From positions 558,001 to 622,000 of the forward strand of contig NZ_JAIUIE010000001.1 in assembly GCF_020165495.1 (NCBI RefSeq): a DNA stretch of 64,000 nucleotides. The letters are read 5' to 3'. The DNA comes from Mesorhizobium sp. BR1-1-16. GTDB lineage: Bacteria; Pseudomonadota; Alphaproteobacteria; Rhizobiales; Kaistiaceae. The notes below the pieces were generated by a model. That model saw only the letters and a list, made by a program, of their open reading frames with translations. It had not been told where the DNA came from and did not search any database. Positions 43,101-61,787 of the stretch are shown here, one piece after another (the first letter of the stretch is position 1; each line of letters begins with the position of its first letter). A program made the position numbers and the translations under genes.

Positions 43101-43105
43101 AATAA

Positions 43106-43133
43106 TTGAAAACGGAATATTGTCAAACGTTGA
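43106..43133. promoter_or_regulatory. Putative MarR operator upstream of marR-like gene
   Basis: TTGAAAACGGAATATTG (43106-43122) is followed by the dyad TCAA-ACG-TTGA (43123-43133). The first part matches TTGCAAACGATAATATTG at 46748-46765 except for one substitution near the start and an A/G plus one-base-length difference in the middle. The shared motif suggests common control by the adjacent MarR protein. Confidence 0.5.
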
Positions 43134-43271
43134 TGGCGATGCTAACGGAACCGCTTTGGCCGCTCGGGCGAGTCCTGCCTGCCTCGTCGGGCGTGGGATC
43201 ACCCTAACCAGCGGTTTGACGGCGTTTCGATAGAGAATGAAAGCAACAATAAGCAATCGACAGGGGGGAAT

Positions 43272-43691: not shown

Positions 43692-43798
43692 CTGCTGAAT
43701 CGGCTCGTCTCGGATGGTCGGTGGCGGTTTGCGCGGTTCCGGGACCTGAAAACGCTTCGGCCGCGCGAAGATGGTGCGCAGCCGAGCTTGATCTGAAA

Positions 43799-45202: not shown

Positions 45203-45225
45203 TGCGGAGGCTTCCTTGCTGGAGG

Positions 45226-46623
45226 TCAAAAGCCAGGCGGACGGCGGGTGTGCCAGTCGGTTGCCTGTTGGAAAGCATGGGCAGCGCGCAGCAAGGCCGC
45301 CTCGGAGAGATGCGGCCCGATCAGCTGCATGCCGATCGGCATGCCGACCGCGGCCATGCCGCAGGGCAGCGTGATGCTTGGGCTGCCGCTGACATTGAAG
45401 GGCGAGGTGAAGCCGAGGAAGCTGATGAGATCGGCGAGATGGGCGTCCATCTGGTCGTAGAGCGCGCCGACCATCGGATACACCGGCGATATCAGGACGT
45501 CGATATCGGCGAAAAGCCTGGAGATCTCGCCCTTGAAGCGGTCGCGCTTGATATAGGCGCGGGACATCGTCAACGGATCATAGGCGAGCCCGCGTTCAAG
45601 CGCCGCGGCGAGCTGGGGGCCGAACACGCTCTTGTCGGTCTCGTAGACGTCCTTGTGAAAGAGAGCGCTCTCCGTGTCGGTGATCACCATCTGGGCGAGC
45701 ATCGCGTCGCGCCGATCGGGCACGGCGACCGGCACGAGCGTTGCGCCCAATTCGCGAAAGACCGTGATCGCCGCCTGGATGGCAGCGACCGTCTCGTCGT
45801 CGACGCCGGTTTCGAGATAGGCTTCGTCAATGCCGATACGCAGCCCGCGCGCGCCGAGAATCCCGTCGAGCGCCGCCAGATAATCCGGAACCGACGCGGA
45901 AAGACTGGTTGGATCCATGGGGTCGGCGCCGGCCATGGCGCTGAACATCGCCGAAACGTCAGCAGCGCTGCGCCCCATCGGCCCGATCGTGTCGAGGGAA
46001 TCGGCGAGCGGAAATACGCCATAGCGACTGGTGCGGCCCCAGGTCGGCTTCAGGCCCGTCACGCCGTTGGCGGCTGAAGGAAAGCGGATCGAGCCGCCGG
46101 TATCGGTGCCGAGGCTGGCGAAGCAAAGGCCGGCTGCGGTGGCGACACCGGAACCCGACGAAGATCCGCCCGGCCAATAGGCCTCGTTCCACGGATTGAT
46201 GCAGCGCCCGAGGGACGGATGGTGTTCGCCGAATGCGCCTTCATGCAGATGCAGGCGGCCGAGAATGATCGCACCAGCCATCTTCAGGCGATGGACCAGC
46301 GTCGCGTCGCTATTGGCGACAAAGTCCTTGTAGGCGAGCGAGCCGAAGGTCGAGGCGACGCCCTCTGTATGGAAGAGGTCCTTGATGGCGATGGGAACGC
46401 CATGCAGAGGGCCCCGACGGCGGCCGGACCGGATTTCGTTTTCGGCGGCCTCCGCCTGGGTGAGGGCGCTCTCTGCGGTGACGAGGAGATAGGAATTGAG
46501 GGCCGGGTCGACCGCCGCGATCCGTTCCAGCATCAGTTCGGTCAGGTCGACAGGTGAGATTTCGCCGGCCGCGATCAGCGCGGAGACCTCGAGCAGCGAG
46601 GCATAGTGCAGTGGCGCGTTCAT
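45226..46623 (-). CDS. Amidase (amidase signature family), upstream paralogue
   Basis: A 465-residue amidase. Motifs: PIAIKDLFHTEGV (Lys), SSSGSGVATAAG (cis-Ser) and GTDTGGSIRFPSAANG (nucleophile Ser). It shares order and the ATDWHTRRPPGF tail with the downstream amidase, with which it is co-transcribed. The start MNAPLHYAS at 46623 fits family length, whereas an open extension of 40 codons runs into the promoter. It is divergent from the peptide-type ABC importer, which suggests joint control of uptake and hydrolysis. Confidence 0.88.
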   Translation of the reverse strand: MNAPLHYASLLEVSALIAAGEISPVDLTELMLERIAAVDPALNSYLLVTAESALTQAEAAENEIRSGRRRGPLHGVPIAIKDLFHTEGVASTFGSLAYKDFVANSDATLVHRLKMAGAIILGRLHLHEGAFGEHHPSLGRCINPWNEAYWPGGSSSGSGVATAAGLCFASLGTDTGGSIRFPSAANGVTGLKPTWGRTSRYGVFPLADSLDTIGPMGRSAADVSAMFSAMAGADPMDPTSLSASVPDYLAALDGILGARGLRIGIDEAYLETGVDDETVAAIQAAITVFRELGATLVPVAVPDRRDAMLAQMVITDTESALFHKDVYETDKSVFGPQLAAALERGLAYDPLTMSRAYIKRDRFKGEISRLFADIDVLISPVYPMVGALYDQMDAHLADLISFLGFTSPFNVSGSPSITLPCGMAAVGMPIGMQLIGPHLSEAALLRAAHAFQQATDWHTRRPPGF

Positions 46624-47039
46624 CGTGATCCGCCCGCCGGCCGCAACGATGCTTCGGTCGGGTGAGGGCGCGGGCAGGGTGCCTTGCTCGTCTGGCTCAT
46701 CATGCCTCCATAGGGAATGAAGGCGGTTATATGTGAAAACCAATTAGTTGCAAACGATAATATTGAATGTTGAAAATATGGTCATGCTGCCTGAGAAATG
46801 CGCGCCGCTTCTGCAGTGAAGCCAATGAGGAGCCGAAGCCGGGCACGTCACAGCGGTGCTCTCGAAAAAATCGCTTCTGCATGGAGATGGCGGAAAATAT
46901 ACGATCTCGAATATTTTTATCCGCGATAATTGGCCTTTTCCTCTCCGCTTGGTCGTCTCGCGACGTCGCTGGCACAGCCCTTGCGAAATAGGTGATGGGC
47001 GCCTGCCGAGCAGCGCGGACGATAATCAGGAGAGAACAT
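46624..47039. promoter_or_regulatory. Divergent promoter region, amidases / ABC importer, with AT-rich repeats
   Basis: A 416-base AT-rich spacer in a GC-rich region. It carries TTGCAAACGATAATATTG (46748-46765; near match upstream of the marR-like gene), TTGAAAATAT (46770-46779; identical 10-mer at 41830-41839), and an inverted repeat AAAATAT-N10-ATATTTT (46894-46917). A 74-codon open frame (46767-46991) inside it has no recognisable features. These elements are the likely control sites for both flanking operons. Confidence 0.55.
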
Positions 47040-48629
47040 ATGAACTCATCGAGAATGCGAGGCGTGCTGAAGCTGGCTGCCATTGCAGTGTTCGGGTTCG
47101 GCTTAGGCGGACACGCATCGGCCGAGTCTGTCCTGCGCGTTGCGATGACGGCGGCGGATATCCCGGATTATACCGGCGCGCCCGATCAGGGTTATGAGGG
47201 CTACCGTTTCGCCGGCTACACGCTTTACGACGCGTTGGCCCTCTGGGACCTGTCGAGCTCCGACAAGGCCGCGGATATCGTTCCCGGTCTCGCGACGAGC
47301 TGGGAAATCGATCCGCAGAATAACAAGCGCTGGATCTTCAATCTCCGCCAGGGCGTCACCTATCACGATGGCTGCCCGTGGAATGCCGATTCCGCGATCT
47401 GGAATTTCAAGCGCGTGATGGACCCGACCGCGCCGCAGTTCAACGCCCGCCATGTCGGCCAGATGGGCACTTATGTTGTGAACATCGCCAGCGTCGACAA
47501 GCTGGACGACTACAAGATCGCCATCAATACGAAGGCACCGAGCTCGCTGTTTCCCTATGAAATGGCGATGTACTACATGATTTCGAATTGTGCCGTGACT
47601 GCGGCCGGCAATGACTATAACGTCTATATGAAGAAGCCGTCCGGAACGGGACCCTACAAGTTCGATTCTGTCGTTCCGCATGAACGGCTCGAGCTGGTCA
47701 AGAACGACAAATACTGGAACCCGGCCCGTATTCCCAAGCATGACCGCCTGGTGCTCCTGCCGATGCCGGAAGCATCGACCCGCGCAGCCGCATTGCTTTC
47801 AGGCCAGGTCGATTTCGTCGAGGCGCCATCGCCTGACACGATCCCGCGCCTGAAGGACGCTGGGATGCAGATCATCACGGTGCCCTATCCCCATAACTGG
47901 GACTACATGCTCCGCGTCGACACGCCGCCCTTCAACGATATCCGCGTCCGGCAGGCCGCGAATTACGCAATGAACCGGCAGGACATGGTCGACATGCTGC
48001 AGGGCGTCGCGGTTGCTGCCGACCAAACGCTGATCGAGTCCCAGCCCTGGTACGGACATCCGGTCAAGTATGAATTCGATCCGGACAAGGCTGCAGCGCT
48101 GCTGAAGGAAGCGAACTGCTCGCCGTGCAAGATCAAGGTCGGCATTTCGACCTCGGGATCCGGGCAGATGCAGCCGCTGCCGATGAACGAACTGGTCAAG
48201 GAGCAGCTTGAGGCAGTCGGCTTCCAGGTTCAGCTCGAGCCGATGGATTGGAATGCGCTGATCGGCGTCTTCCTGTCAGGTGCGGGGAAGAGCGATTTCA
48301 ATGCGATCAACTTCTCGATGGCACCGATCGACCCGGTTCAGGGCATCCTCAAGAAGTGGATGACCGAATACCAGCCGCCAGCCTGCTGCAACTGGGGTTT
48401 CTATTCCAATCCAAAGCTCGACGCGCTCGGCAAGCAGGCCCTCGGTGAATTCGATCCTGCGAAGCGCAACGTCCTGCTGACGCAGATGAACGAGATGGCC
48501 GTGGCCGACGCGGCGGAGCTCTACATCGTCCACGATCTCAATCCCCGCGCGCTTTCGCCAAAGCTCTCCGGCTTCGTGCAGGCCCAGAGCTGGTTCCAGG
48601 ACCTGACCCCGATCGTGGTCGCACCATGA
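47040..48629 (+). CDS. ABC peptide/nickel-type transporter substrate-binding protein (family 5)
   Basis: A 529-residue secreted binding protein. The signal peptide is about residues 1-27 (LKLAAIAVFGFGLGGHASA). Family-5 features include WEIDPQNNKRWIFNLRQGVT, the GTGPYKFDS motif and a C-terminal lobe ending VVAP. Two cysteine pairs stand out (CSPC near residue 360 and ACCNW near 445). AGGAGAG precedes the ATG. It is the first gene of a run with two permeases, two ATPases, a formamidase and urease genes. The substrate may be a short peptide, an amide or ureido compound, or a chelated nickel ion for urease; the cluster supports an amide best. Confidence 0.88.
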   Translation: MNSSRMRGVLKLAAIAVFGFGLGGHASAESVLRVAMTAADIPDYTGAPDQGYEGYRFAGYTLYDALALWDLSSSDKAADIVPGLATSWEIDPQNNKRWIFNLRQGVTYHDGCPWNADSAIWNFKRVMDPTAPQFNARHVGQMGTYVVNIASVDKLDDYKIAINTKAPSSLFPYEMAMYYMISNCAVTAAGNDYNVYMKKPSGTGPYKFDSVVPHERLELVKNDKYWNPARIPKHDRLVLLPMPEASTRAAALLSGQVDFVEAPSPDTIPRLKDAGMQIITVPYPHNWDYMLRVDTPPFNDIRVRQAANYAMNRQDMVDMLQGVAVAADQTLIESQPWYGHPVKYEFDPDKAAALLKEANCSPCKIKVGISTSGSGQMQPLPMNELVKEQLEAVGFQVQLEPMDWNALIGVFLSGAGKSDFNAINFSMAPIDPVQGILKKWMTEYQPPACCNWGFYSNPKLDALGKQALGEFDPAKRNVLLTQMNEMAVADAAELYIVHDLNPRALSPKLSGFVQAQSWFQDLTPIVVAP

Positions 48630-48640
48630 CGTGACGCCTC

Positions 48641-48674
48641 AAAGGGTCGCGGACGCTTCTGTTCGCGGCCCTTT
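48641..48674 (+). terminator. Stem-loop between binding-protein and permease genes
   Basis: AAAGGGTCGCG (48641-48651) pairs with CGCGGCCCTTT (48664-48674), an 11-bp stem with one T-G pair and a 12-base loop. It probably protects the binding-protein mRNA or causes partial termination, giving more binding protein than permease. Confidence 0.6.
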
Positions 48675-48725
48675 CCCGGCGGGTGGACCATCCGGGCGGG
48701 ACTGTCCGTACTTTGGAGGCAAGTG

Positions 48726-49682
48726 ATGTGGCTTTACGCGCTCCGGCGCATCATCCTGACCATCCCGATCCTTTTCGGCGTGACGGTTATCTGCTTCGCA
48801 CTGGTGCAGATCGCGCCGGGCGACCCGATCCAGAACCTGTTGTCGCCGACGGCGAGCCAGGCCGACGCCGAGAGACTGCGCGCCGCCTACGGCCTCGATA
48901 AGCCGCTTCCGGTCCAATATGTGATTTGGCTCGGCAAGGTGTTGGTCGGCGACATGGGCATGTCGATCGCCAACAACACGCCGGTGACGGGCGAGGTGCT
49001 TCGCGCATTCACCAACACGATCGTGATCGCGATGATAGCCGTGGTGATCGCCTTCATCCTCTCCACGATCTTTGGTGTCGCCGCCGCCTATCGTTCCGGC
49101 GGCCTCGTCGACAAGGCGATCACGGCCGTCGCGGTCTTCGGTATCAGCGTGCCGACCTTCTGGCTCGGCGTCATCCTCGTCATCATCTTCGCGGTCAACC
49201 TCTCCTGGCTGCCGGCCACCGGAATGGGTGCCGGCGGCTCCAAGGGCTTCGACTATCTGAGCTGGAGCGATTTCAGATTTGCCGTCATGCCGATCATCGC
49301 GCTGGCATTGCCGCCGCTCGGGATCATGACGCGGACGACGCGATCCTCGCTCTCGGAAATCCTCAACCAGGACTTTGTCCAGACGTTGCGCGCCAAGGGC
49401 CTGTCCGAGTTCGAGGTGATGGTGCATGCGGTCCGCAACATCATGCCGGCGGCGGTCGCGATGCTCGGGCTGCAGCTTGGCTATCTGATCGGCGGCTCGG
49501 TACTGGTCGAGACGGTGTTTACCTGGCCGGGCACCGGTTACCTGCTGAACAAGGCCATTCTGACCCGCGATATCCCGCTGCTGCAGGGCACCATCCTGGT
49601 GCTCGCAACGGCCTTCGTCCTCATCAATCTCGTCGTCGATCTTGCGCAGTCGCTCATCGATCCGCGCATCAAACGAAGCTGA
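48726..49682 (+). CDS. ABC peptide/nickel-type transporter permease (DppB-like)
   Basis: A 318-residue inner-membrane permease with an N-terminal YALRRIILTIPILFGVTVIC helix. It has the APGDP motif typical of DppB/OppB/NikB, a TMD with about six helices, and an EAA-like loop (LRAKGLSEFEVMVHAVRNIM). The ATG at 48726 has GGAGG six bases upstream; a GTG one codon earlier is closer than ideal. It forms the channel with the DppC-like protein. Confidence 0.93.
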   Translation: MWLYALRRIILTIPILFGVTVICFALVQIAPGDPIQNLLSPTASQADAERLRAAYGLDKPLPVQYVIWLGKVLVGDMGMSIANNTPVTGEVLRAFTNTIVIAMIAVVIAFILSTIFGVAAAYRSGGLVDKAITAVAVFGISVPTFWLGVILVIIFAVNLSWLPATGMGAGGSKGFDYLSWSDFRFAVMPIIALALPPLGIMTRTTRSSLSEILNQDFVQTLRAKGLSEFEVMVHAVRNIMPAAVAMLGLQLGYLIGGSVLVETVFTWPGTGYLLNKAILTRDIPLLQGTILVLATAFVLINLVVDLAQSLIDPRIKRS

Positions 49683-49692
49683 GAGGCATCCG

Positions 49693-50595
49693 ATGACCGA
49701 CGCTCTCGCCAATTCCCTCGCCGCTGCTCCAGTCCAGTCTGCACCCGCCGCGCGCGTCCGCAGCTACTGGGGCGGGGTCTGGCAGAGGCTGCGCTATGAC
49801 TATGTCACGCTGTTCTGCATCGCCCTCATCATCCTGATCGTGCTTTCGGCGGTGTTCGCGCCCTGGCTCGCGCCGTTCGATCCTTACAAGTCCTCGATGG
49901 CCCATCGCTTGAGGCCGATCGGCTACAGGCAGTTCCTGCTCGGCACCGACGAACAGGGTCGCGACATGCTGAGCCGCCTGCTCTATGGCGGCCGCGTCTC
50001 GCTGTTGATGGGGATCGTCCCTGTCCTCCTGGCGACGCTGGTCGGCGGCATGTTCGGCGTCGTGGCCGGATATTACGGGCGAAAAGTCAACATGGGCATC
50101 ATGCGCACCATGGACATCTTCTTCGCCTTTCCCTCGGTCCTGCTGGCGGTGGCGATCTCGGGCAGCCTTGGCGGCGGCATCACCAACCAGATGCTGACCC
50201 TGACCGTCGTCCTCATTCCGCCGATCTGCCGTGTCGCCGAGACAGCGACGAGCCAGGTCCGCAACATGGATTTCGTCGACGCAGCGCGGGCGACCGGCGC
50301 TTCGACGACATCGATCCTCTTCACGCATGTGCTCATCAACGTGATGTCGCCGGTCCTCGTCTACGCGTCGACGCTCGTCTCCATCTCGATCATCCTTGCC
50401 TCCGGCCTGTCGTTCCTGGGGCTCGGCGTCTCGCCGCCGACCGCCGACTGGGGGCTGATGCTCTCGACCCTGAGGCAGTCGATCTATGTCCAGCCGCTGG
50501 TTTCCGCCATTCCCGGCGTCGCCATCCTTGTCACTTCCATCGCGTTCAACCTGGTCAGCGACGGCTTGCGCCAGGCCATGGACGTCAAGGCCTGA
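49693..50595 (+). CDS. ABC peptide/nickel-type transporter permease (DppC-like)
   Basis: A 300-residue inner-membrane permease. It has the family segments LGTDEQGRDMLSRLLYGGRVSL (characteristic of DppC/OppC/NikC), an EAA-type loop DAARATGASTTSILFTHVL, and a C-terminal TADWGLML. It starts ten bases after the DppB-like stop. About 35 residues before the first helix are cytoplasmic and alanine-rich. Confidence 0.93.
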   Translation: MTDALANSLAAAPVQSAPAARVRSYWGGVWQRLRYDYVTLFCIALIILIVLSAVFAPWLAPFDPYKSSMAHRLRPIGYRQFLLGTDEQGRDMLSRLLYGGRVSLLMGIVPVLLATLVGGMFGVVAGYYGRKVNMGIMRTMDIFFAFPSVLLAVAISGSLGGGITNQMLTLTVVLIPPICRVAETATSQVRNMDFVDAARATGASTTSILFTHVLINVMSPVLVYASTLVSISIILASGLSFLGLGVSPPTADWGLMLSTLRQSIYVQPLVSAIPGVAILVTSIAFNLVSDGLRQAMDVKA

Positions 50596-50610
50596 TCGAA
50601 AGGGACGCAG

Positions 50611-51696
50611 ATGACCCAGATGGCCCTATCGCCGCCGCCTGTTGCCGCCGAGGATCCGCGTGATCGTGGCGGCCCGGCCCAGCCGATGCTGATCGTCGAC
50701 GGCATCCGGAAATACTTCCCCATCCGCGCCGGCGTGCTCAACCGGACGGTCGCCGAGGTCAAGGCGGTCGACGACATCTCGTTCTACGTCCTGAAGGGCG
50801 AGACGCTCGGCATCGTCGGCGAGAGCGGCTGCGGCAAGTCAACCCTGGCGCGGCTGCTGATGCATCTCGTCGATCGCGACGAGGGCCATCTCATCCTTGA
50901 TGGCGACCTTGTCGGCGAGGAAACGGGCGTGCCCCTCGATGGGCTTCGACGCGCGCTGCAGATGGTGTTCCAGGACAGCTATTCCTCGCTCAATCCACGC
51001 CTGCCGATTGAACAGTCGATCGCCTATGGTCCGAAGGTGCAGGGCGCATCATCCAAAGTGGCGAAAGCGCAAGCCCGCGCCCTGATGGAGAAGGTTGGCC
51101 TGAAGGCGAACCTGTTCGCGCAGCGTTATCCGCATGAACTCTCGGGTGGCCAGAAGCAGCGCGTCAATATCGCCAGGGCACTGGCGCTTGATCCCCGGCT
51201 GTTGATCCTCGACGAGGCGGTCTCGGCGCTCGATAAATCCGTCGAGGCCCAGGTGTTGAACCTACTCGAAGACCTCAAGAAGCAGCTTAATCTCACCTAC
51301 ATCTTCATTTCCCACGATCTCCACGTCGTCCGCTACATCTCCGACCGCGTCCTGGTGATGTATCTCGGCCAGGTGGTGGAGATCGGTCCTGTGGACCAGA
51401 TCTACGAGGACCCGCAGCACCCCTACACCCAGGCTCTGCTGGCCTGCCGGCTGTCGATGGATCCCGAGGAGCGGGTCGAGGCGGCGCCGCTGGCCGGCGA
51501 TCCGCCCAATCCGGTCAACCCGCCATCGGGATGCCGCTTCCACACACGCTGCCCCTTCATGGAGGACGTCTGCATGGCCAAGGCACCTGGCCTTGGCGAT
51601 GTCCTGAGATCGTCCGCCGACGACCATCTGGCCGCTTGCCACATGGTTCATCCCGGTTCGGGCCACAGCCGTGCACCCCTTCCGGTTCGTGCCTGA
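50611..51696 (+). CDS. ABC peptide-type transporter ATP-binding protein (DppF-like)
   Basis: A 361-residue ATPase. Walker A is GESGCGKST, the signature LSGGQKQRVNIARALAL, Walker B LLILDEAVSALD, and the H-loop ISHDLHVVRY. The oligopeptide-family C-terminal extension (about residues 260-361) has CRFHTRCP with the conserved cysteines found in OppD/F. An N-terminal leader of about 25 residues precedes the conserved domain. The DppF-like gene precedes the DppD-like one here, the reverse of the usual order. Confidence 0.92.
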   Translation: MTQMALSPPPVAAEDPRDRGGPAQPMLIVDGIRKYFPIRAGVLNRTVAEVKAVDDISFYVLKGETLGIVGESGCGKSTLARLLMHLVDRDEGHLILDGDLVGEETGVPLDGLRRALQMVFQDSYSSLNPRLPIEQSIAYGPKVQGASSKVAKAQARALMEKVGLKANLFAQRYPHELSGGQKQRVNIARALALDPRLLILDEAVSALDKSVEAQVLNLLEDLKKQLNLTYIFISHDLHVVRYISDRVLVMYLGQVVEIGPVDQIYEDPQHPYTQALLACRLSMDPEERVEAAPLAGDPPNPVNPPSGCRFHTRCPFMEDVCMAKAPGLGDVLRSSADDHLAACHMVHPGSGHSRAPLPVRA

Positions 51697-51717
51697 CCTT
51701 TGGCGCAGGAGAACGAC

Positions 51718-52833
51718 ATGAACGACATGACGACCCCCAACCTGTCTGGATCCCAGCCGCTGGCCACGCCTTTCGTCAGCGTCAAGGACCTGCGTGTCCG
51801 CTTCGTCAGTCGCGAGGCGACGGTGCGCGCGGTCAATGGCGTCACCTTCGACCTCGCACGCGGCGAGGTTCTCTGCGTCATCGGCGAATCCGGTTCAGGC
51901 AAGTCCGTGATGATGCGCTCGCTGCTGCGCCTTCATCCCAAGAAGCGGACAGTGATCGAAGGCAGCATGCAGGTCGGCGAGCATGACATCGGCACCGTCA
52001 GCGACCGTGTGCTGTCGAAGCTGCGCGGTTCGACGATCTCGATGATCTTCCAGGAGCCGATGACGGCGCTCGATCCGCTCTACACCATCGGCGACCAGAT
52101 CGCCGAGACGGTTCGGCGCCATGAGGGATTGGGCCGCGAGGCTGCATGGGCGCGGGCGCTCGAATTGCTGGAACTCGTGCGCGTTCCCTCTCCCGAGCGC
52201 CGGCTGAAGGCCTATCCGCACGAACTTTCCGGAGGTCTGCGCCAGCGCGCGATGATCGCCGTCGCGCTGTCCTGTCGTCCAAGCCTCCTGCTGGCAGACG
52301 AGCCGACGACGGCCCTCGATGCCTCCGTGCAGATCCAGGTCCTGGTGCTGCTGCGCCGGCTGCAGCGGGAAATGGACATGTCGATGATCTTCGTCACGCA
52401 TGATCTCGGCGTCGCGGCGCAGATCGCCGACAAGGTCGCCGTCATGTATGCCGGCCGCATCATCGAATATGGCAGCGTTGGCGACGTCCTCAACCGCCCG
52501 CAGCATCCCTATACGCAGGCCATGCTCGCCTCGACGGTGAAGGACCAGGAGCGCGTCGTTCCACTCGAGGCGATCGCCGGCAGTCCGCCGGATCTGAGGG
52601 CGCTTCCCGAGGGCTGCAGCTTCCTGCCGCGCTGCGCCTATGCGGAGCCCGAATGCGCCGTCGCGATGCCATCCGAGACCGTCGATGCGAGCCGCCACAT
52701 GGCCCGCTGCTATCGCGTCGGGCTCGAAGGCAAACGGCTTGCCTTCAACGGATCCGCGTTGCCGCCAGGCGGTCGGGCAACACCGGCGCCGATGGCCGCA
52801 GAGCGTGCGGAAATGCTGGGCCGGTCTGCCTGA
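51718..52833 (+). CDS. ABC peptide-type transporter ATP-binding protein (DppD-like)
   Basis: A 371-residue ATPase partner of the DppF-like protein. Walker A is GESGSGKS, the signature LSGGLRQRAMIAVAL, Walker B LLLADEPTTALD, and the C-terminal CSFLPRCAYAEPEC extension carries cysteines. The ATG at 51718 has AGGAG nine bases upstream. It is the last transporter gene, about 110 bases before the formamidase-family gene. Confidence 0.92.
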   Translation: MNDMTTPNLSGSQPLATPFVSVKDLRVRFVSREATVRAVNGVTFDLARGEVLCVIGESGSGKSVMMRSLLRLHPKKRTVIEGSMQVGEHDIGTVSDRVLSKLRGSTISMIFQEPMTALDPLYTIGDQIAETVRRHEGLGREAAWARALELLELVRVPSPERRLKAYPHELSGGLRQRAMIAVALSCRPSLLLADEPTTALDASVQIQVLVLLRRLQREMDMSMIFVTHDLGVAAQIADKVAVMYAGRIIEYGSVGDVLNRPQHPYTQAMLASTVKDQERVVPLEAIAGSPPDLRALPEGCSFLPRCAYAEPECAVAMPSETVDASRHMARCYRVGLEGKRLAFNGSALPPGGRATPAPMAAERAEMLGRSA

Positions 52834-52945
52834 TCACTGCTGAATGAAACCGTTTCCATCCTGATCATATTCCCTGCGATCCGGAGTTGGGCCGCCCTCG
52901 CGAGGCTGCATCATCCGGCTCACGCCGTCCCTGGAGGACCGAAGA

Positions 52946-53896
52946 GTGGCGAATTTCCACCTGCAGCCGAGTGTCGAAACCTGCCATTGGGGCTATTTCG
53001 ACGCGAAGCAGCGTCCGGCGCTCACGATCTCGAGTGGCGATACCGTGACGATCGACACGGTCTCGGGCTCGCCGAACGTCATCCCAGACCGCACGAAGTT
53101 CCATATTCCGGACGCGCTTGACGCCATCCATGCAGGGCTTCGGCCCGAGGGGCCGCATATCCTGACCGGTCCGGTCTTTATCGAAGGCGCCATGCCCGGC
53201 ATGGTCGTCGAGATCCGCATCCATGACGTGTCGCTGCTGCAGGATTGGGGCTTCAATCTCATCCTGCCGCTGCTCGGCACGCTTCCGCATGACTATGACG
53301 AGCCGCGCCACGTCAATATTCCGCTCGATCGGGCGCGCAATGTCGGCATCCTCCCGTGGGGGCTGGAACTCGACTTGAAGCCGTTCTTCGGCGTCATGGG
53401 CTTTGCGCCGCCGAAAGGCTGGGGCCGCATCTCGTCGATTGCCCCTCAGGCGACCGGCGGCAATCTCGACAACAAGGAACTGACAGCCGGCAGCACGCTG
53501 TTCCTGCCGGTCTTCACCGAGGGCGGCCTGTTCTCCTGCGGCGACGGGCATGGCGCGCAGGGCGACGGCGAAGTTTGCGTCACGGCGATCGAAACAGCGC
53601 TTCGCGGCACGTTCGAATTCATCCTCCACAAGGATCTCGCCTTCACCTATCCGCGTGCCGAGACTCCAACCCACTACATCACGATGGGCATGGATCCCGA
53701 TCTCGACCAATGCGCCGTCAAGGCGCTGCGCGAGATGATCACGCTGATCGGCGAGAAAACGGGGCTCTCGGCCGCCGACGCCTACATGCTCTGCAGCCTC
53801 GCGGGCGATCTGCACGTGACCCAGACCGTCAATGTCTCCAAGGGCGTGCACATGATGATCGAAAAGAAACTGCTCACCCCGCGGAAGGAACATTGA
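52946..53896 (+). CDS. Acetamidase/formamidase family protein (FmdA/AmdA)
   Basis: A 316-residue metal-dependent amide hydrolase that would release ammonia from formamide, acetamide or a related short amide. The family text is visible: HWGYFDAKQRPALTISSGD near the N-terminus, GPVFIEGAMPGMVVEIRI, LPVFTEGGLFSCGDGHGAQGD with potential metal ligands, and ADAYMLCSLAGDLHVTQTVN at the C-terminus. The start is GTG with GGAGGA seven bases upstream. It is two bases before the asparaginase-like gene and follows the ABC importer genes, so it is probably part of the same operon. Confidence 0.9.
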   Translation: MANFHLQPSVETCHWGYFDAKQRPALTISSGDTVTIDTVSGSPNVIPDRTKFHIPDALDAIHAGLRPEGPHILTGPVFIEGAMPGMVVEIRIHDVSLLQDWGFNLILPLLGTLPHDYDEPRHVNIPLDRARNVGILPWGLELDLKPFFGVMGFAPPKGWGRISSIAPQATGGNLDNKELTAGSTLFLPVFTEGGLFSCGDGHGAQGDGEVCVTAIETALRGTFEFILHKDLAFTYPRAETPTHYITMGMDPDLDQCAVKALREMITLIGEKTGLSAADAYMLCSLAGDLHVTQTVNVSKGVHMMIEKKLLTPRKEH

Positions 53897-53898
53897 TC

Positions 53899-55587
53899 AT
53901 GACGAGGATCCGGATTGCCCATCTCGCCGGCCCCACGGCGACGATCCAGAATACGCCTCCGCTGGTCACTTCGAACAAGGCCCGGCTTGCGAAGGGGCTG
54001 ACGCCTTTGCCGGCGGGTGAGGGCGGAGCGCCGGCCTTCGATGCACTGCGGGCCCAGCGGCTCGCGGCCCCGGTCAAGGTCTATGTCGAACAGTTCTCAG
54101 CCCATCCGCTCGAGGCCGACAGCGCCGAACTCTATGCCCCGCCCGACGGCTATGTCGGCGCCGACGGCGTGTTCAGCAAGGAGCGCCGCGCGGAGGAGGA
54201 CAAGCCGGTCTACGAGATCGAGCTTGCCCCGGAAGACGGTCTTTATCCGCTCCCCTATATGGCCTTGCAGCTGGATGGCTCGCCCTGGGAGGAGGAGGCG
54301 GTCGTCCCCGGCGGGCCGGTTTCGCGGCAGGGGTTCTTCCCGGATGGCTCGCGCAGCTTCGAGGAAATTGATCGCCTCTCGATCGGGGCGGATGGTCAGG
54401 GCAACCTGATCGGCGGCCGTGCCGAGGTCGATTTCTACCGCGTCTGCCCACCGGGCGGATTCACCAAAGGCCTGGCGGAAGATCGCCGCGCCGATACCGG
54501 CGCAGGCGATATCGCGCCGGAGAGCCTCGGCCGTGACTTCTTCGCCTACAAACCCTTCCAACTCGCCAAATCGCCGCCGCGGCCCGTTCTCGCCAAGATC
54601 ACCAATGACGTCCAGGCGATCATGGCCTCGGGGAAATATGACGGCGCGATCTGGACGCAGGGCAGCCCGCAGGTCGAGGAGATCGCCTATTGGTTCAATC
54701 TCCTCATCGATACCAACCTGCCGATCGCCTGCAACGCGGCGCAGCGGCCGCAGGGCCAGATCAGCAATGACGGTCCGGCCAACATCGTCGATTCCGTCAC
54801 CTATCTCCAGTCGCGCATCTGGGACGACGGCAAGGGTGGCAACCGCTGCGGAACGGTCGTCATCCAGGAGCAGCAGTTCTTCGCCGCTCGCGAGGTTGCC
54901 AAGGTCGATGCACGGCCCGGCGGCTATGTCGCAACCGGCGGACATGGCGGCATCCTCGGCCAGGTCACCCATACCGGCAAACCCTATCTCATGTATCTGC
55001 CGGCCTACCGCCATACGGCCTCGTCGGCGGTCAAGCTCACCAGCCTGCCGACGCATGTGACAGCGACGCGGCTGACGCCCGGCGGCATCTACAGGGTTGA
55101 GGTGCGGGTGAAGGACGACGACGGGGCGCTGCGCGGCGACGCCATTCCGCTCGTCTCCATCGTCAAGGACGGCGGCTTCGCCGCCGATGCGTTCGGCGAT
55201 GATCCCGAGGCCGAGGCCGATCTCGGCTTCCTGATCCGCCATCGCCTCGAAAGCGGCCGGCTGGTCGGCTTCGTCGTTGAGGGCCTCGTCCCCTATGGCA
55301 TGGCGACATCAGAACTGCGCACCGCCATGCTGCGCCGGGCGAGCTTTAGCGGTGCGCCGGTCGTGCGTGTCGGCCGCGGCTATCCTGAGGGCTTCGCCGA
55401 TCCTGATCCGCTGTCGATCGCCGGGATGAACCTCACCGCCACCAAGGCGCGCCTGCTGCTGATGGCGGCGCTGATGAAGTTCGGCAGCCTGCCGGCGGCC
55501 GCCGATCCGGCGCATCCGACGGCGGCGGAGGTCGAGGCCCTGAAGGCGGCGGTGGCGGCCTATCAGCACGTCTTCGACACACATTGA
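53899..55587 (+). CDS. Asparaginase/glutaminase-like protein with altered active-site motifs
   Basis: A 562-residue cytosolic protein with no signal peptide. Residues 250-300 match the asparaginase core: TQGSPQVEEIAYWFNLL sits where L-asparaginases have THGTDTxEETAYFL, and ISNDGPANIVDSV matches MSADGPxNLxNAV. The catalytic Thr-Asp pair is replaced by Ser256-Pro257. Near the N-terminus AGPTATIQNT stands where ATGGTIA is expected, and the usual Lys may be that in AREVAKVDA. The first 230 residues include about 180 not found in normal asparaginases. GGAAGG precedes the ATG. It is squeezed between the formamidase and ureE genes, so it may act on an amide other than asparagine. Confidence 0.65.
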   Translation: MTRIRIAHLAGPTATIQNTPPLVTSNKARLAKGLTPLPAGEGGAPAFDALRAQRLAAPVKVYVEQFSAHPLEADSAELYAPPDGYVGADGVFSKERRAEEDKPVYEIELAPEDGLYPLPYMALQLDGSPWEEEAVVPGGPVSRQGFFPDGSRSFEEIDRLSIGADGQGNLIGGRAEVDFYRVCPPGGFTKGLAEDRRADTGAGDIAPESLGRDFFAYKPFQLAKSPPRPVLAKITNDVQAIMASGKYDGAIWTQGSPQVEEIAYWFNLLIDTNLPIACNAAQRPQGQISNDGPANIVDSVTYLQSRIWDDGKGGNRCGTVVIQEQQFFAAREVAKVDARPGGYVATGGHGGILGQVTHTGKPYLMYLPAYRHTASSAVKLTSLPTHVTATRLTPGGIYRVEVRVKDDDGALRGDAIPLVSIVKDGGFAADAFGDDPEAEADLGFLIRHRLESGRLVGFVVEGLVPYGMATSELRTAMLRRASFSGAPVVRVGRGYPEGFADPDPLSIAGMNLTATKARLLLMAALMKFGSLPAAADPAHPTAAEVEALKAAVAAYQHVFDTH

Positions 55588-55609
55588 GGGGCGCGCGAGG
55601 ATGACGGCG

Positions 55610-56059
55610 ATGCTGCGAATTCACGGGATCATCGGCCAGGAAACGGACCCGGCCTATCGCGGGCGGCTGCATTCGCTCGAGCACCATGACGGCATCGAGC
55701 TGCTGTTCGTTCCGCCGGAGGACGCCGGGCGCAAGCGCTTCCGCCTCGCGACCGATCGCGGCACAGACTGCGCCGTCAGTCTCGATCGCGACGAGGAACT
55801 CGTCGACGGAGCGCTGCTGTATCTTGGGCCGGACCGCGCCATTATTGCGCGTTTCGGGGCCCAGGCGATCTGGCGCCTGCGTCCCGCGACAGCGGCTGCA
55901 GCGCTGAAGCTTGGCTGGAATGCCGGCAATCTGCATTGGCGTGTGCGCTTCGAAGACGATTGCCTTCTCGTGCTGCTCGATGGGCCGCTCGCCGATTATC
56001 GCGCCCGCATCCAGCCGCTGATGGCCGAGGGCGAGGTCGCGGAACTTGCCGATGTTTGA
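55610..56059 (+). CDS. ureE: Urease accessory protein UreE (nickel chaperone)
   Basis: A 149-residue UreE. The N-terminal peptide-binding-type domain covers about residues 1-75, and the C-terminal metal domain includes GWNAGNLHWRV, where the conserved His of the UreE dimer interface is retained. The histidine-rich tail found in many UreE proteins is missing, so it probably delivers but does not store nickel. The ATG at 55610 is nine bases after GAGG; an ATG three codons upstream directly abuts that site. It overlaps ureF by eight bases. Confidence 0.85.
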   Translation: MLRIHGIIGQETDPAYRGRLHSLEHHDGIELLFVPPEDAGRKRFRLATDRGTDCAVSLDRDEELVDGALLYLGPDRAIIARFGAQAIWRLRPATAAAALKLGWNAGNLHWRVRFEDDCLLVLLDGPLADYRARIQPLMAEGEVAELADV

Positions 56060-56729
56060 CGCTCTCACCGCGCTGGCGCTCTGCCAATATGGCGACAGTG
56101 CCTATCCCGCAGGGGGCTTCGCCTTTTCGTGGGGCGTCGAGGGGCTTGCCGCCGACGGCTTGCTGGAAGGGTCCGCGGATCTCGACGAACTGATCGGCGA
56201 GCATCTCGAAGCGCGCTGGAACACGATGGACCGTCCCCTGCTGCGCCGCGCTTTTCGCGCCGACGACCTCGAGGCGGTCGCCGCGATCGACCGTCTCGCC
56301 GATGTCTCAACCCCTTCCGCGCCGATGCGTGAGGGCTCGCGCCGGGCTGGGCGGGCGCTGCTGGGCGTTTCGGCACGGCTTGGTCATTCCCGCTCGCGCG
56401 CCTATCGCGCGATGCTGGAGGGCAATGAGCGGCTCGGCCATCTGCCGGTCGTGCAGGCGGTCGTCTATCGCGACGGCGGGCTCGCGCTGGAAGCGGCGGA
56501 GCTCGTCTCCGGCTGGACGCTGGTGAATGGTCTCGCCAGCGCTGCCGTGAGGCTCGGCGTCATCGGCCATGTCGAGGCGCAAAGCAGCCTCACCGCGGCG
56601 CGCGGGCATCTGGCGCGGCTTGTGGCCGAGCCCTGTCCCGACGAGCAGCGCCCGTCGAGCTTCACGCCGCTGATCGATATCGCGATCTCGCGCAATCCCT
56701 CGCGGCATGTCCGCATGTTCACGACCTGA
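56052..56729 (+). CDS. ureF: Urease accessory protein UreF
   Basis: A 225-residue all-helical protein that acts with UreD and UreG as the gate for urease nickel activation. Family features are the N-terminal QYGDSAYPAGGFAFSWGVEG segment and the LGHSRSRAYRAM-like middle. The ATG at 56052 lies inside the end of ureE. It is 14 bases before the fused structural subunit gene. Confidence 0.9.
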   Translation: MFDALTALALCQYGDSAYPAGGFAFSWGVEGLAADGLLEGSADLDELIGEHLEARWNTMDRPLLRRAFRADDLEAVAAIDRLADVSTPSAPMREGSRRAGRALLGVSARLGHSRSRAYRAMLEGNERLGHLPVVQAVVYRDGGLALEAAELVSGWTLVNGLASAAVRLGVIGHVEAQSSLTAARGHLARLVAEPCPDEQRPSSFTPLIDIAISRNPSRHVRMFTT

Positions 56730-56743
56730 AACGGGGCACAGCC

Positions 56744-57442
56744 ATGATGAACCTGACGCCGACCGAAATGGACCGCCTCGTCATCTTCACGGCGGCGGAA
56801 ATGGCGCGTCGCAACCGCGCGCTCGGCATCCGCCTCAGCCATCCGGAGGCCGTGGCGCTCTTGACCGACGAGGTCATGCTCGCCGCGCGGCGCGACATGC
56901 CCTATGCCGAAATCCGTGACATGGCGAGCCAGCTGCTGACGACCGACGACGTCGAGCCGGGCGTCGCCGAGATGGTGGCGATGATCTACATCGAATGCCA
57001 TTTCGCCGAGGGCACGAAGGTGATGGCGCTGTTCGAGCCGATCTCGCGCGGGCCGGCGCCTTTGCTCGATGACGTCGTGCCGGGCGAGATCATCGGCGGC
57101 GAAGGCGACATCGCCATGTTCGCCGATCAGCCGGTCGTGGTGGTCGACGTCGTCAATACGGGCGACCGCGACGTCCAGGTCCGCAGCCATTCGCATTTCT
57201 TCGAGGTCAACCGCGCGCTGCAGTTCGATCGTGGCGTGACCTTCGGCATGAAGATCGATCGTCCCGCCGGAACGGGCATTCGCTTCGAGCCGGGCGTCGT
57301 CAAGGCGGTGCGGCTGGTCCCGATCGACGGCGCCCGCATCGTTATGGGCCAGGCCGGTCTCGTGAACGGGCCGCTCGATGCGCCCGGTGCGCGGGAGCGA
57401 TCGCTCGAGCTCGCCCGCGCCCGCGGCTATCGAGGCGCGTGA
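56744..57442 (+). CDS. ureAB: Urease gamma/beta fusion subunit (UreAB)
   Basis: A 232-residue fusion of two urease subunits. Residues 1-100 are the gamma subunit (NLTPTEMDRLVIF start, LSHPEAVALLTDEVML). Residues 103-232 are the beta subunit (VVPGEIIGGEGDI, SHFFEVNRALQFDR, GTGIRFEPG). The family usually has separate ureA and ureB; this fusion recalls Helicobacter UreA and the divergent urease clusters of some actinobacteria and alphaproteobacteria. It ends eight bases before ureC. Confidence 0.93.
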   Translation: MMNLTPTEMDRLVIFTAAEMARRNRALGIRLSHPEAVALLTDEVMLAARRDMPYAEIRDMASQLLTTDDVEPGVAEMVAMIYIECHFAEGTKVMALFEPISRGPAPLLDDVVPGEIIGGEGDIAMFADQPVVVVDVVNTGDRDVQVRSHSHFFEVNRALQFDRGVTFGMKIDRPAGTGIRFEPGVVKAVRLVPIDGARIVMGQAGLVNGPLDAPGARERSLELARARGYRGA

Positions 57443-57450
57443 GGAGCATC

Positions 57451-59157
57451 ATGACAACGATGAACCGCAAGGCCTATGCCGATCTCTATGGGCCGACCAA
57501 AGGTGATCTGGTCCGCCTCGGCGATACCTGGCTCTTCGTGGAGATCGAGGAGGACTACACCGTCTATGGCCACGAACTCCTGATCGGAGCGGGCAAGAAC
57601 CTGCGCGACGGCGAAGGCATCAATCCCTATCGCACCTCGTCCGACAAGATCCTCGATATCGTCATCAAGAATGCGACGATCATCGATGCGGTGGCCGGCA
57701 TCGTGAAGGCCGATATCGGCATCCGCGACGGGCGGATCGTCGGCATCGGCAAGGCCGGTAATCCCGATGTCATGCCGGGCGTCCATCCGGATCTGATCGT
57801 CGGCCACACGACGTCGCCAGTCTCCGGCGAAGGGTTCATCGTCACGGCGGGCGCCGTCGAGAGCCACGCTCATATCCAGTCGCCCGAACAATCGGAACAT
57901 GCGCTTGCCGGGGGAACCACGACCCTGGTCGGCGGTGGTCCGGGGCCCGTGTTCGAAGTCGGCAGCGGCAGCACGGCGACCTTCGGGCGCTTCCTGCAGG
58001 CGACCGAGCATTCGCCGCTCAATTTCGCGCTGTTCGGGCGCGGCGGCTCCGATCCGCGTGCGGTCGAGGAATCGGTCGCCGCAGGCGGTATGTCAGTGAA
58101 AATCCACGAGGATTTCGGCGCTTCCCCCGCTGTGATCGACCAGACCCTCATCGCGGCGGACCGCAATGATTTCGCGGTTCACCTGCATACGGATTCGATC
58201 AACGAGTTCGGCTTCTGCGAGGACACGATGGCGGCCGTCGATGGCCGCACCATCCATATGTATCACGTGGAAGGCGCCGGCGGCGGCCACGCGCCGGACC
58301 TTCTCAAGGTTGTTTCCTACGAAAACGTCATTCCATCCTCGACCAACCCCACCAACCCCTACACCAGCTATGGGATGGAAGAGGGCGTGCCGATGACGAT
58401 GATCGCGCACCAGCTCAACTACAACACGCCCGAGGACGTCATATTCGGCGAGGCGCGGGTCCGCGCGCAGTCTATGGCCGCCGAGGACTTCCTGCATGAC
58501 ATGGGCGCCATCTCGATCTTCGGCACCGATACGCAGGGCATGGGCCGGCTGGCGGAGAATGTCGCCAATTGCTGGCAGCTCGCCAGCGTCATGAAGGAGC
58601 GGGTCGGCCGGCTGGCCGAAGAGACGACGGCTCGGGCCGATAACGAGCGCGTCAAGCGCTACATCGCCAAGCTCACCATCAATCCGGCGATCGCGGTCGG
58701 CATCGCCGATCATGTCGGCTCGATCGAGCCCGGCAAGATGGCAGATCTGGTGATCTGGCCGCGTGCCTCGTTCGGCATCAAGCCGTTCATGGTCATCAAG
58801 GGCGGCTTCGTCGCCTGGGCCGCTATGGGCGACGGCAATGGCAGCCTCAGCCTCTCCGAGCCGATGATCCAGCGGCCGATGTGGGGTTCGCTCGGCGCAG
58901 CGCCGCGACATCTCGGCGTCAACTTCATGTCGAGCCTCGCCATCGAGGCCGACGTTCGCGGGCGGCTTGGCCTTGGCAAGCAAAGCGTCCCGATCAGGAA
59001 TGTCCGTAAGCTCGGCAAGTCGGACATGCTGAGAAACAGCGCCAAACCGTTTGTGGAGGTCGATCCGCAGACCTTCGAAGTGCGAGCCGATGGCAAGCTG
59101 CTGATGTGCCCGCCCGCTGTGAAGGTGCCGCTCGCTCGGAGATATATGCTGCGATGA
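57451..59157 (+). CDS. ureC: Urease alpha subunit, divergent (UreC)
   Basis: A 568-residue amidohydrolase-fold subunit that hydrolyses urea with two nickel ions. All canonical ligands are present: His139 and His141 (ESHAHI), carbamylated Lys217 (VKIHED), His219, His246 (LHTDSINEF), His272 and Asp360 (GTDTQGMGR), with catalytic His320 and Arg336. Several surrounding motifs differ from typical ureases: AVESHAHI for GIDTHIHF, GGGPGP for GGGTGP, and the mobile-flap CHH(L) is AHQ(L), so the flap Cys319 is Ala. The ATG at 57451 has GAGGAG upstream; the frame open to 57439 is not used. Urea is the default substrate, but a substituted urea is possible. Confidence 0.92.
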
Positions 59158-59795
59158 ATATGATGACATCTACGGCGCCCCAGCGCGTCGCCGCGGCGCG
59201 GGTCGGCATCGGCGGGCCGGTCGGCTCGGGCAAGACCGCGCTGGTCGAACGCCTCATTCCGGCATTGCAGGCGCGGGGCATCGATCTCGCCGTCATCACC
59301 AATGATCTGGTGACGGCAGAGGACGCCGAGCGCATCCGCCGCTCGGGTCTGATCGATCCGGCGCGCGTTTCGGCCGTGGAGGCCGGTGCCTGCCCGCATA
59401 CCGTGATCCGCGAGGATCCGACGTTGAACATCGAAGCTGCCGACGCGCTGGAGCGGCAGTTTCCCGGCGTCGAACTGATCCTGATCGAAAGCGGCGGCGA
59501 CAATCTCGCCTCGACCTTCTCGCGCGATCTCACCGACTTCTGGCTGTTCGTCATCGATGTGGCTGGCGGCGACGATATTCCGCGCAAGCGCGGACCGGGT
59601 CCGATCCGCTGCGATGTCCTCATCATCAACAAGACCGACCTTGCGCCTCATGTCGGCGTCGATCTTGCCCGCATGCATGCCGAAGCGCTGACCGTGCGCG
59701 GCAATCGGCCGGTGCTGCTGACCAATTGCAGGGGCGGAGAGGGGATCGAGGCCGTGATCGCGATGATTGAAAAAGACGTGCTGTTTCGGGCGTGA
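59154..59795 (+). CDS. ureG: Urease accessory GTPase UreG
   Basis: A 213-residue SIMIBI GTPase that couples GTP hydrolysis to nickel insertion. The P-loop GPVGSGKT is at residues 21-28, the nickel-binding Cys-Pro-His motif at 80-82 ([11 protein letters not shown]), the ESGGDNLA switch follows, and the guanine-binding NKTD lies in [14 protein letters not shown]. It overlaps the ureC stop by four bases (ATGA) and ends overlapping ureD (GTGA). No histidine-rich N-terminal extension is present. Confidence 0.95.
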
Positions 59796-60634
59796 CCATC
59801 GCCTCACCGGCCAACCACGCGCAGCTTGATCTCGGCTTTGCCCGGCGCGGCGAGCGGACCGTGATGGCTCGTCGGCTGTTTGCCTGGCCCTTCGTGCTGA
59901 CGCGGTCCTTCGCTCTCGATACTGTTCCGGCGCACATGCTCACGGTGATCGTGCAGACGAGCAGTGGTGCCGTGCATGGCGAGGATCGTCTGATCCAGCG
60001 CATCCGTGTCGCGACGGGTGCGGCGGCACATGTAACCACCCAGGGCGCGACAGCGGTGCACCGCGCTCATCCGGGCTTCACCAGCCGTGAGGCGATCAAG
60101 CTCGACGTCGCGCCCGGCGGAGAACTCGAATTCCTGCAGGAACCACGGATTCTGTTTCCGGAGGCCGCGCTGGACCAGACGGTGGAAATCGAGGTCGCGC
60201 CCTCAGGTGCGGCCATCATTGCCGATGCGTTCACGGTCCACGATCCCGCAGGTGAGCATCGCCCCTTTCGCCGGCTGACCTCGTCCACGGTGCTGACGCG
60301 AGCCGGCGATCCGGCCGTGATCGACCGGCTCGATATCGCGGCACTGCCACGCCGGCGCGCCGTCCGATTTGAAGCGTTCGGAACCGTGCTGCTGGCGCTG
60401 CCGGACAGCTTCGCGATGTGTGATGAACTCGCTCGGACGCTGACGGAGCGCCTCGGCTCGCTGGGCGATCTCTATGGCGCCGCCAGTCCGTTGCCGATGC
60501 GCGCAGGCGTCGGCATACGCCTTGCTGCGCCCGACCTCCGCAGCGTCAGAGCCGGTATCAAGGCGACGTGGACCGCTTATCGGCTGGCACTGCATGGCGT
60601 CGCGCCGGCCGATCGGCGGTCTTCAGCTACATGA
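59792..60634 (+). CDS. ureD: Urease accessory protein UreD (UreH)
   Basis: A 280-residue scaffold that binds apo-urease and UreF/UreG. Family text includes [35 protein letters not shown] and [14 protein letters not shown]. It starts with GTG within the ureG stop. It is the last gene of the urease operon, whereas in many bacteria ureD comes first. The C-terminus overlaps the end of the convergent esterase gene by eight bases. Confidence 0.9.
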
Positions 60635-61787
60635 GGCCTGCCTGGCGCAAGGCGTCTTCGATTACCTTGCGAATGCCGCCGACATCTTCGCGAGCGGACC
60701 GGTTTGGAGCCGTCGTTCCGTTTCGCTGACGGTCGTCGGCTTGTGGCTGCACCGGCATCTCTGTCGTCACAAGCAACTCGTCCGGGTCCAGAGCGTGGGG
60801 CGTGGTCGCAGTGCTCGAGGCCGCGTGCTCGGCCGTGAGCCCCCAACGCGCGGCGATAAGGCGGGTCGACGAGAGGCCGACATCGAGGATGAACGGGCCG
60901 GCGGCGCCGAGCGCATCGGGTCCCTTGTCGTCGATGGGGGTGCCATGGCCCATGCCGGCGATCAGTACCTGTTCGAGGCGGATGTCGCCGCGGGCATCGT
61001 GCCAGACACGGCGCGTGACACGTCCGTCCTTGCTGACGTCGTCCGGCTTGGCCGCGACCTGATGCACACCGCGCCATTGCTCGATGATCGCGTCGGCATT
61101 GGCCGCGCTGACGGTCTGGTCGCCGGTCCCCTGCCAGACGGAGACGGTCGGCCAGCCGGTTGATGGCGTGGCGTCCGGCAGCAGCTTGCGCAAAGCTGGA
61201 CCGTCTGGAAGCCCGTGTGCCCGCATGACATCGAAGGCACCGGGGATCGTCGTGGCGACGCCATAGGGCAGGCCGGCGATGATCGCGCCGCCGGCAAAAA
61301 GCTCTGGATAGTCGGCGAGCATCACGAGCGCCATGGCGCCGCCGGCCGAGAGCCCGGTGACGTAGACCCTGCTTCGGTCGATCGAATGGGTCGCAACCAT
61401 ATGGTCGATCATCTGCCGGATCGATAGCGCCTCGCCCTGGTCGCGCTGGAAATCCGACGGCTGGAACCAGTTGAAACAGCGATTGAGGTTGTTGGCCTGC
61501 CCCTGCTCGGGAAACAGCAGCGCGAAGCCCGCCTCTTCGGCAAGCATCGACCAGCCGGTCCCCGCGTCATATTGCGCGGCAGACTGCGTGCAGCCATGCA
61601 GGACCACCACGAGCGGCATCGCGGCGGCTGGGCGCTTCGGAATGTAGATCCGCCCCTTGAGCGCCCCCGGATTGGACCCGAACGGGCCGAGATACGCAAG
61701 GCGGTCGACGGATGGTGATGGCTGGGCTGGCTGCTTCATGTGCTTGAAGGCAGCCAGGCGAGCGATCGTATCGGACAGGTTGCGCAT
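60627..61787 (-). CDS. PHB depolymerase-family esterase
   Basis: A 386-residue alpha/beta-hydrolase of the poly(3-hydroxybutyrate) depolymerase/LpqC family. The oxyanion motif is VVLHGCTQSA, the nucleophile Ser147 lies in VTGLSAGGAMA, the acid is in WQGTGDQTV, and the His is in GMGHGTPID. No classical signal peptide is seen. The C-terminal 70 residues are low-complexity. GAGGAG precedes the ATG. Relatives also include feruloyl and acetylxylan esterases, so the substrate is open. The 230 bases on its upstream side, towards pgm, hold nothing I recognise. Confidence 0.85.
   Translation of the reverse strand: MRNLSDTIARLAAFKHMKQPAQPSPSVDRLAYLGPFGSNPGALKGRIYIPKRPAAAMPLVVVLHGCTQSAAQYDAGTGWSMLAEEAGFALLFPEQGQANNLNRCFNWFQPSDFQRDQGEALSIRQMIDHMVATHSIDRSRVYVTGLSAGGAMALVMLADYPELFAGGAIIAGLPYGVATTIPGAFDVMRAHGLPDGPALRKLLPDATPSTGWPTVSVWQGTGDQTVSAANADAIIEQWRGVHQVAAKPDDVSKDGRVTRRVWHDARGDIRLEQVLIAGMGHGTPIDDKGPDALGAAGPFILDVGLSSTRLIAARWGLTAEHAASSTATTPHALDPDELLVTTEMPVQPQADDRQRNGTTAPNRSAREDVGGIRKVIEDALRQAGLM

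Follow-up and report, generated by a model that had tools for sequence, protein, structure and literature searches.

A conserved gene cluster of an Opp/Dpp-type importer, predicted amide hydrolases and a divergent urease in Mesorhizobium sp. BR1-1-16: a candidate unit of amide catabolism

A gene cluster at positions 39316–60634 of a 64,000-nucleotide stretch of Mesorhizobium sp. BR1-1-16 DNA (contig NZ_JAIUIE010000001.1, positions 558,001 to 622,000; here called the window, on contig C1 of the 5.2 Mb source genome) was analysed by sequence comparison. It encodes an importer of the Opp/Dpp type, predicted amide hydrolases and a nickel urease, and rather likely constitutes one dedicated amide-catabolic unit, the last enzyme of which would hydrolyse urea, or an amide resembling it, that is set free in the cell. 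Seven predicted amide hydrolases, urease included, are encoded within 21 kb. An earlier note on the window had described thirteen same-strand genes with short gaps or overlaps, running from the importer through a formamidase (FMD) and an asparaginase-like protein (ASP) into ureE-F-AB-C-G-D, and all of these are present. Its further claim, that importer and hydrolases look like parts of one pathway, gained support from conserved linkage, from the number of hydrolases and from an importer that is kept with ASP, often together with FMD, at loci where the retrieved DNA showed no urease gene. The unit is larger than the thirteen-gene run, since it extends on the minus strand to 39316, as it does on a Rhizobium tumorigenes plasmid.

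Conservation of the gene cluster

ASP was used as the query of the conservation search. Among 150 genomes of the order, a close match (90%) was found only in Kaistia soli besides the source genome, the other 20 matches being partial with 25–36% identity; among 398 genomes of the phylum, the source genome gave the sole match at E 1e-20. Relatives of ASP were found in 123 stretches of a GTDB contig collection, the best 80 of which were kept and combined with four plasmid loci to give 84 loci; a partial Lichenicola match (L068) was left out. Thirteen of the 84 loci share one gene order for the importer (substrate-binding protein (SBP), both permeases and the two ATPases), ASP and, as a minimum, ureE. 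The retrieved DNA contained ureC in ten of these and ended at contig ends before it in the other three. FMD was present in 11 of the 13, with two fragments in one of the remaining loci and a weak 62-residue match in the other. The carriers include K. soli, Lichenifustis, Lichenibacterium, Methylocapsa, Devosia, Mesorhizobium, Rhizobium and an Acetobacteraceae metagenome-assembled genome (MAG). Conserved linkage in relatives, which the earlier note had named beforehand as a test, was thereby seen at 13 further loci from several genera, with a rearranged version in Chthonobacter.

The R. tumorigenes plasmid carries the arrangement of the window, divergent arm included, plus one extra amidase, and an unannotated R. 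rhododendri plasmid agrees with it in gene content and order. In Chthonobacter albigriseus (L081 and L149, one contig), genes for FMD–ASP, a MarR regulator, an AmiC-like protein, amidases, the SBP and importer, and a convergent cysH–ureEFABCGD group lie within ∼26 kb. The 13 genes of the run are under strong purifying selection: the ratio of nonsynonymous to synonymous substitution rates (dN/dS) between the window and K. soli was 0.02–0.15 and was lowest for UreC (0.02). The corresponding value for the amidase gene ami1 (1.7) was left out of the comparison as an alignment artefact. No empty insertion site could be shown in other Kaistia genomes; the flanking genes, K. soli excepted, are lacking there or do not adjoin one another. 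In Lichenibacterium ramalinae (L074:9521–9985), the FMD gene appears as two fragments and the adjoining cluster genes match at full length.

Urease phylogeny and neighbourhood

A UreC tree was computed from 52 sequences with the LG+G4 model; residue positions are those of Klebsiella aerogenes, the numbering scheme of the solved urease considered below being offset by three. The cluster UreC (57451–59157, +) belongs to a clade of 15 sequences with a bootstrap value of 100 and a stem of 0.532 substitutions per site. Within the clade the ASP-linked UreC sequences form a group of 12 (support 82), and the Chthonobacter UreC groups with that of Pleomorphomonas.

When aligned to K. aerogenes UreC, the cluster protein has intact Ni ligands (H134, H136, K217, H246, H272, D360); these residues are kept in the tabulated clade members together with H219, E220, D221, H320, R336 and G277. 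In the window UreC the 160–180 loop is shortened, and the usual loop and flap residues A167, H312, C319, H321 and A363, which vary in other urease types too, are replaced (A167F, H312G, C319A, H321Q, A363G), as are two serines (S359T, S361T). Compared with the urea-specific ureases of K. aerogenes and Sporosarcina pasteurii (UreABC and UreDEFG), the cluster shares all subunits and accessory proteins, the six Ni ligands, H219, D221, H320 and R336; it differs by its fused UreAB, its shortened loop, its amidase company and the clade-wide changes A167F/L, H312G, C319A/C, S359T, S361T and A363G, residue 321 being Q, S, N, M, I or A. The Urt-linked alphaproteobacterial ureases found on Aminobacter, Shinella and Methylobacterium plasmids form the sister clade and have the same ureEF-AB-C-G-D order, a changed loop and G363. 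They have V167 and retain H312, C319, H321, S359 and S361, so that clade and sister differ at 167, 312, 321, 359 and 361. A third urease type from other genomes of the genus (L059 9300–15638, L062, L060) occupies its own branch and has G167, L312 and N321; positions 167, 312 and 321 are therefore not absolute. A predicted UreC model built from nine clade sequences had a mean pLDDT (predicted local distance difference test score) of 27, and nothing was concluded from it on the pocket.

Amidases of the amidase-signature (AS) family, counted in the retrieved surroundings at E values up to 1e-12, accompany the clade urease in 14 of 14 testable cases, as against none of six sister and none of four other ureases; as the stretches are of unequal length and the members related to one another, these counts are a contrast and not a probability. 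A Mesorhizobium clade member at a contig end was not counted, and at least 13 kb was needed for the sister count (a seventh stretch, of 5.4 kb, was left out). The Shinella locus has a gene annotated as aliphatic amidase that the AS queries did not match. Each of the six sister ureases is accompanied by some of the Urt, ANTAR and HupE genes, and allantoin or urate genes lie near the sister urease on the Aminobacter and Methylobacterium plasmids and not on that of Shinella. Because the sisters adjoin urt genes and, in two of three plasmid records, purine–ureide genes, the parental urease probably served urea from import or catabolism.

Among 14 clade-carrier genomes searched, 13 encode a further UreC (48–55% identity; in one of them the gene is partial and lies at a contig end), and one MAG (G574) encodes none. 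The source genome has a second, ordinary UreC (53% identity) and a UrtB elsewhere. The statement of the earlier note that UrtABCDE is missing accordingly applies to the window, where no Urt genes were found beside the cluster urease; it does not extend to the genome, in which UrtB scored 440 bits (cut-off 250). The clade UreC was found in 2 of 14 genomes of the genus. The Pleomorphomonas stretch contains AS amidases and a HAAT/Urt-like importer, but neither ASP nor FMD was noticed there; annotated genes for an allophanate hydrolase, GatA and a further amidase surround the clade urease and HAAT importer on this plasmid (L066:279–2889 and 23879–25710).

The importer

The importer genes comprise an SBP_bac_5 protein (47040–48629, +, ATG at 47040; PF00496, 259 bits) followed on the same strand by permease 1 (NikB/DppB-like, 48726–49682), permease 2 (NikC/DppC-like, 49693–50595) and two ATPases (DppF-like, 50611–51696; OppD-like, 51718–52833), the last four identified by profile search. 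In 13 of the 84 ASP loci, orthologues of the SBP (41–60% identity to the window) and of both permeases (57–70% for permease 2) adjoin ASP and no urease gene was found in the retrieved DNA, which in one case (L096) extends just ∼250 bp downstream of ASP. Ten of these 13 genomes were searched with UreC: none has the clade UreC, nine have a UreC of 47–51% identity, and a small MAG has none. The source genome has a NicO-type transporter elsewhere; HupE/UreJ was not found in it. The importer thus goes with ASP also where the retrieved DNA holds no urease gene, and, with a NicO-type transporter in the genome as well, a role in nickel supply is improbable.

The asparaginase-fold protein ASP

ASP (53899–55587, +; 562 residues) was assigned by sequence and fold comparison, and its predicted model has a type II asparaginase fold. 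The description "asparaginase-like" in the earlier note holds in part, for the asparaginase match spans just a portion of the protein. PMC8256714 names Thr12, Tyr25, Thr89, Asp90 and Lys162 as the catalytic residues of type II L-asparaginase. ASP keeps only part of this set: T15 (assigned by motif, not by superposition) and K335 are retained, S256 replaces Thr89, no Tyr25 equivalent is evident, and P257 stands for the catalytic Asp90 in 50 of 51 ASP sequences. It differs from type II L-asparaginases such as E. coli AnsB also by its length, with insertions. The family is uncharacterised, with ∼560 residues and at least 80 loci, mostly in Alphaproteobacteria and in many catabolic settings, and the cluster directs attention to it. 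Substrate guesses from ASP neighbours (RutA-like and NtaA-like proteins, a thiamine pyrophosphate (TPP) enzyme and others) were too diverse to pick one. In Neorhizobium sp. EC2-8 (L065:15947–17684), the ASP gene matches in three pieces and is probably broken or misassembled.

An ASP tree was built from the window protein, that of A. vitis and those of 49 of the 80 GTDB loci, 51 sequences in all. In this tree the ASPs linked to urease in the main gene order, ten in number, form one clade (bootstrap 99). The Chthonobacter ASP lies outside it, among loci without urease genes, and the ASPs of L080 and L103, which lack urease genes, are placed between the two. As the Chthonobacter ASP stands apart and the UreC of this genus clusters with that of Pleomorphomonas, the linkage probably arose more than once; in the simplest reading, the urease and the FMD/ASP/importer set were joined at least twice.

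Proposed pathway and alternative explanations

In the unit that we propose, each reaction, the order of steps, the regulation and the substrate are deduced, the steps from protein families. The Opp/Dpp-type importer would take up an amide-rich compound or a family of such compounds, the amide or ureido bonds of which would be cut by the AS-family amidases, the cysteine hydrolase, FMD and ASP. Cleavage would liberate urea, or a small amide similar to it, in the cytoplasm, and the co-inherited nickel urease, distinct from the cell's ordinary urease, would convert this product to ammonia. The MarR regulator and the AmiC-like sensor may respond to the amide. The AS amidases retain, as judged by eye, the Ser-Ser-Lys residues and the cysteine hydrolase the Asp-Lys-Cys residues of their families. 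Ureidomalonase, in oxidative pyrimidine breakdown, provides a precedent for an amidase that frees urea. A literature search gave no report of this gene combination or of ureases with other substrates, most subscription journals lying outside its coverage. If the proposal is true, the cluster could expose an amide nitrogen source for soil, root and lichen bacteria.

Several observations weigh against such a unit. The same-order loci are linked by descent and transfer, so that the counts are not independent, and the two joinings could instead represent one old linkage with subsequent losses (the ASP-linked UreC group has a support of 82). In a MAG (L072), one of the three loci cut off at contig ends, ureE and ureF follow ASP, yet a search of the whole assembly gave no clade UreC. 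Two of the 13 loci lack FMD or have it in a broken form, so not every hydrolase is required, and ASP occurs in many settings, including with flavin monooxygenases and other importers; owing to these varied settings it fails to indicate one substrate. In Brucella, just one of the two urease operons is reported to encode an active urease, so second ureases can be idle. By published description, Brucella ure-2 resembles the cluster as a second urease cluster besides the ordinary one; it differs in its urea transporter and nickel transport system, and its urease is reported as inactive. The losses of FMD, the variable company of ASP and the inactive Brucella enzyme would all suit a loose neighbourhood in which a peptide importer, amidases and a spare, perhaps idle urease travel together with no common pathway. 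We regard this as unlikely, as the order is strict in 13 loci, Chthonobacter has a complete though rearranged set, the amidase association is confined to this urease clade within the sample, and purifying selection is strong. Still less probable, and indeed hardly to be expected, is that the importer supplies nickel to the urease, an alternative raised in the earlier note. Urease requires nickel, and NikB/NikC-type models are the best or nearly the best matches of the permeases, although all below cut-off; the SBP, however, reaches 119.7 bits against the NikA equivalog (cut-off 393), and several heme- and peptide-binding proteins outscore nickel-binding ones in its PDB search. The importer orthologues beside ASP in loci with no urease gene in the retrieved DNA and the NicO transporter also argue against nickel supply, as do three clade ureases outside the ASP cluster (Pleomorphomonas, G010 and a MAG), which pair with a HAAT/Urt-like importer instead.

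Urease is usually regarded as urea-specific. A tentative alternative to a dedicated unit ending in urea hydrolysis is that the clade consists of nickel amidohydrolases that no longer act mainly on urea and were re-tuned to a substituted urea or other small amide from the adjoining amidases, the cells mostly keeping another urease for urea. The long, fully supported stem, the five positions that differ from the sister clade against a background of conserved Ni ligands, H219, D221, H320 and R336, the further urease of most carriers and the UrtB of the source genome all fit this possibility. In a solved urease, according to PMC7433671, the equivalents of A167 and A363 touch urea and the flap bears those of C319 and H320. 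These contacts are made, however, through backbone oxygens (same source); moreover, all Ni-binding and proton-moving residues are kept, C319 is retained in some clade members, and the third urease type likewise varies at 167, 312 and 321. We consider a change of substrate doubtful; if true, the clade would serve as a natural experiment on substrate change in the urease scaffold.

Gene inventory and sequence analysis

The divergent arm (39316–46743) encodes three AS amidases, the cysteine hydrolase, the MarR regulator and the AmiC-like protein. Amidase ami3 (39316–40911, –) matches NCBIfam amidase families below cut-off and has a 73% identical counterpart at the corresponding position of the R. 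tumorigenes plasmid; ami2 (43799–45229, –) was identified by profile search; the nearest solved relatives of ami1 (45226–46743, –; likely start near 46623) include GatA, a peptide amidase and a biuret hydrolase of the AS type. The UrtA/AmiC-like binding protein (42054–43100, +; TIGR03407, 136 bits, below cut-off) has no evident signal peptide (start and signal peptide judged by eye) and is a probable cytosolic sensor. The MarR-type regulator (43272–43691, +) was found as an open reading frame (ORF), the R. tumorigenes counterpart of which is annotated MarR and is 88% identical.

The isochorismatase-like cysteine hydrolase cysH (41027–41734, –) is RutB/BiuH-like and matches RutB and biuret hydrolase, among others, in the PDB; it remains below both equivalog cut-offs (RutB, 69 bits, cut-off 378; BiuH, 61 bits, cut-off 370). 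The likeness to the Rut pyrimidine pathway consists in this gene and in a RutA-like enzyme that adjoins ASP in two plasmid loci outside the cluster; in contrast to that pathway, the window cluster showed no RutA-like gene, and all scores lie under the RutA and RutB cut-offs. With the cyanuric acid and biuret pathways (AtzE, AtzF, BiuH) the cluster shares AS amidases and an isochorismatase-like hydrolase, all below equivalog cut-offs; these pathways are not known to have urease as their final step.

FMD (52946–53896, +) is a short acetamidase/formamidase family protein of 316 residues (PF03069, 105 bits) with the acetamidase 2ii1 as nearest solved relative (E 1.5e-40). It shares this family and structure match with the FmdA/AmdA formamidases–acetamidases and differs by its length. 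The name formamidase used in the earlier note is thus correct as to family and too specific as to function, the score against the FmdA equivalog being 61 bits (cut-off 500). The urease genes, all on the plus strand, encode UreE without a His-rich tail (55601–56059; NF009752, above cut-off), UreF (56052–56729; PF01730), a fused gamma–beta subunit UreAB (56744–57442; NF009671, 314 bits, cut-off 243), UreC (TIGR01792, 731 bits, cut-off 680), UreG (59154–59795; TIGR00101, above cut-off) and UreD (59792–60634; PF01774).

Within the 13-gene run, gaps of 112 bp (second ATPase to FMD) and 96 bp (SBP to permease 1) were found, the others being ∼20 bp or less, or overlaps. No terminator-like site was detected on the plus strand at 46500–61000, a weak result as the scan gave fewer sites than shuffled sequences; promoter- and terminator-like sites in the window scan were not in excess over shuffled sequence. 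An AT-rich inverted repeat (46895–46916), a possible operator, lies ∼145 bp 5′ of the SBP start. Counterparts occur ∼145 bp upstream of SBP in K. soli, R. tumorigenes and R. rhododendri. At this distance in the remaining ten loci, L074 has a different inverted repeat and the other nine have none, the SBP start being poorly placed in L073, L074 and L075 and L078 giving just 218 bp. Directly upstream of the cluster (32852–37663, +), a 1603-residue ORF with repeated GGxGxD-type units apparently encodes a calcium-binding repeat protein.

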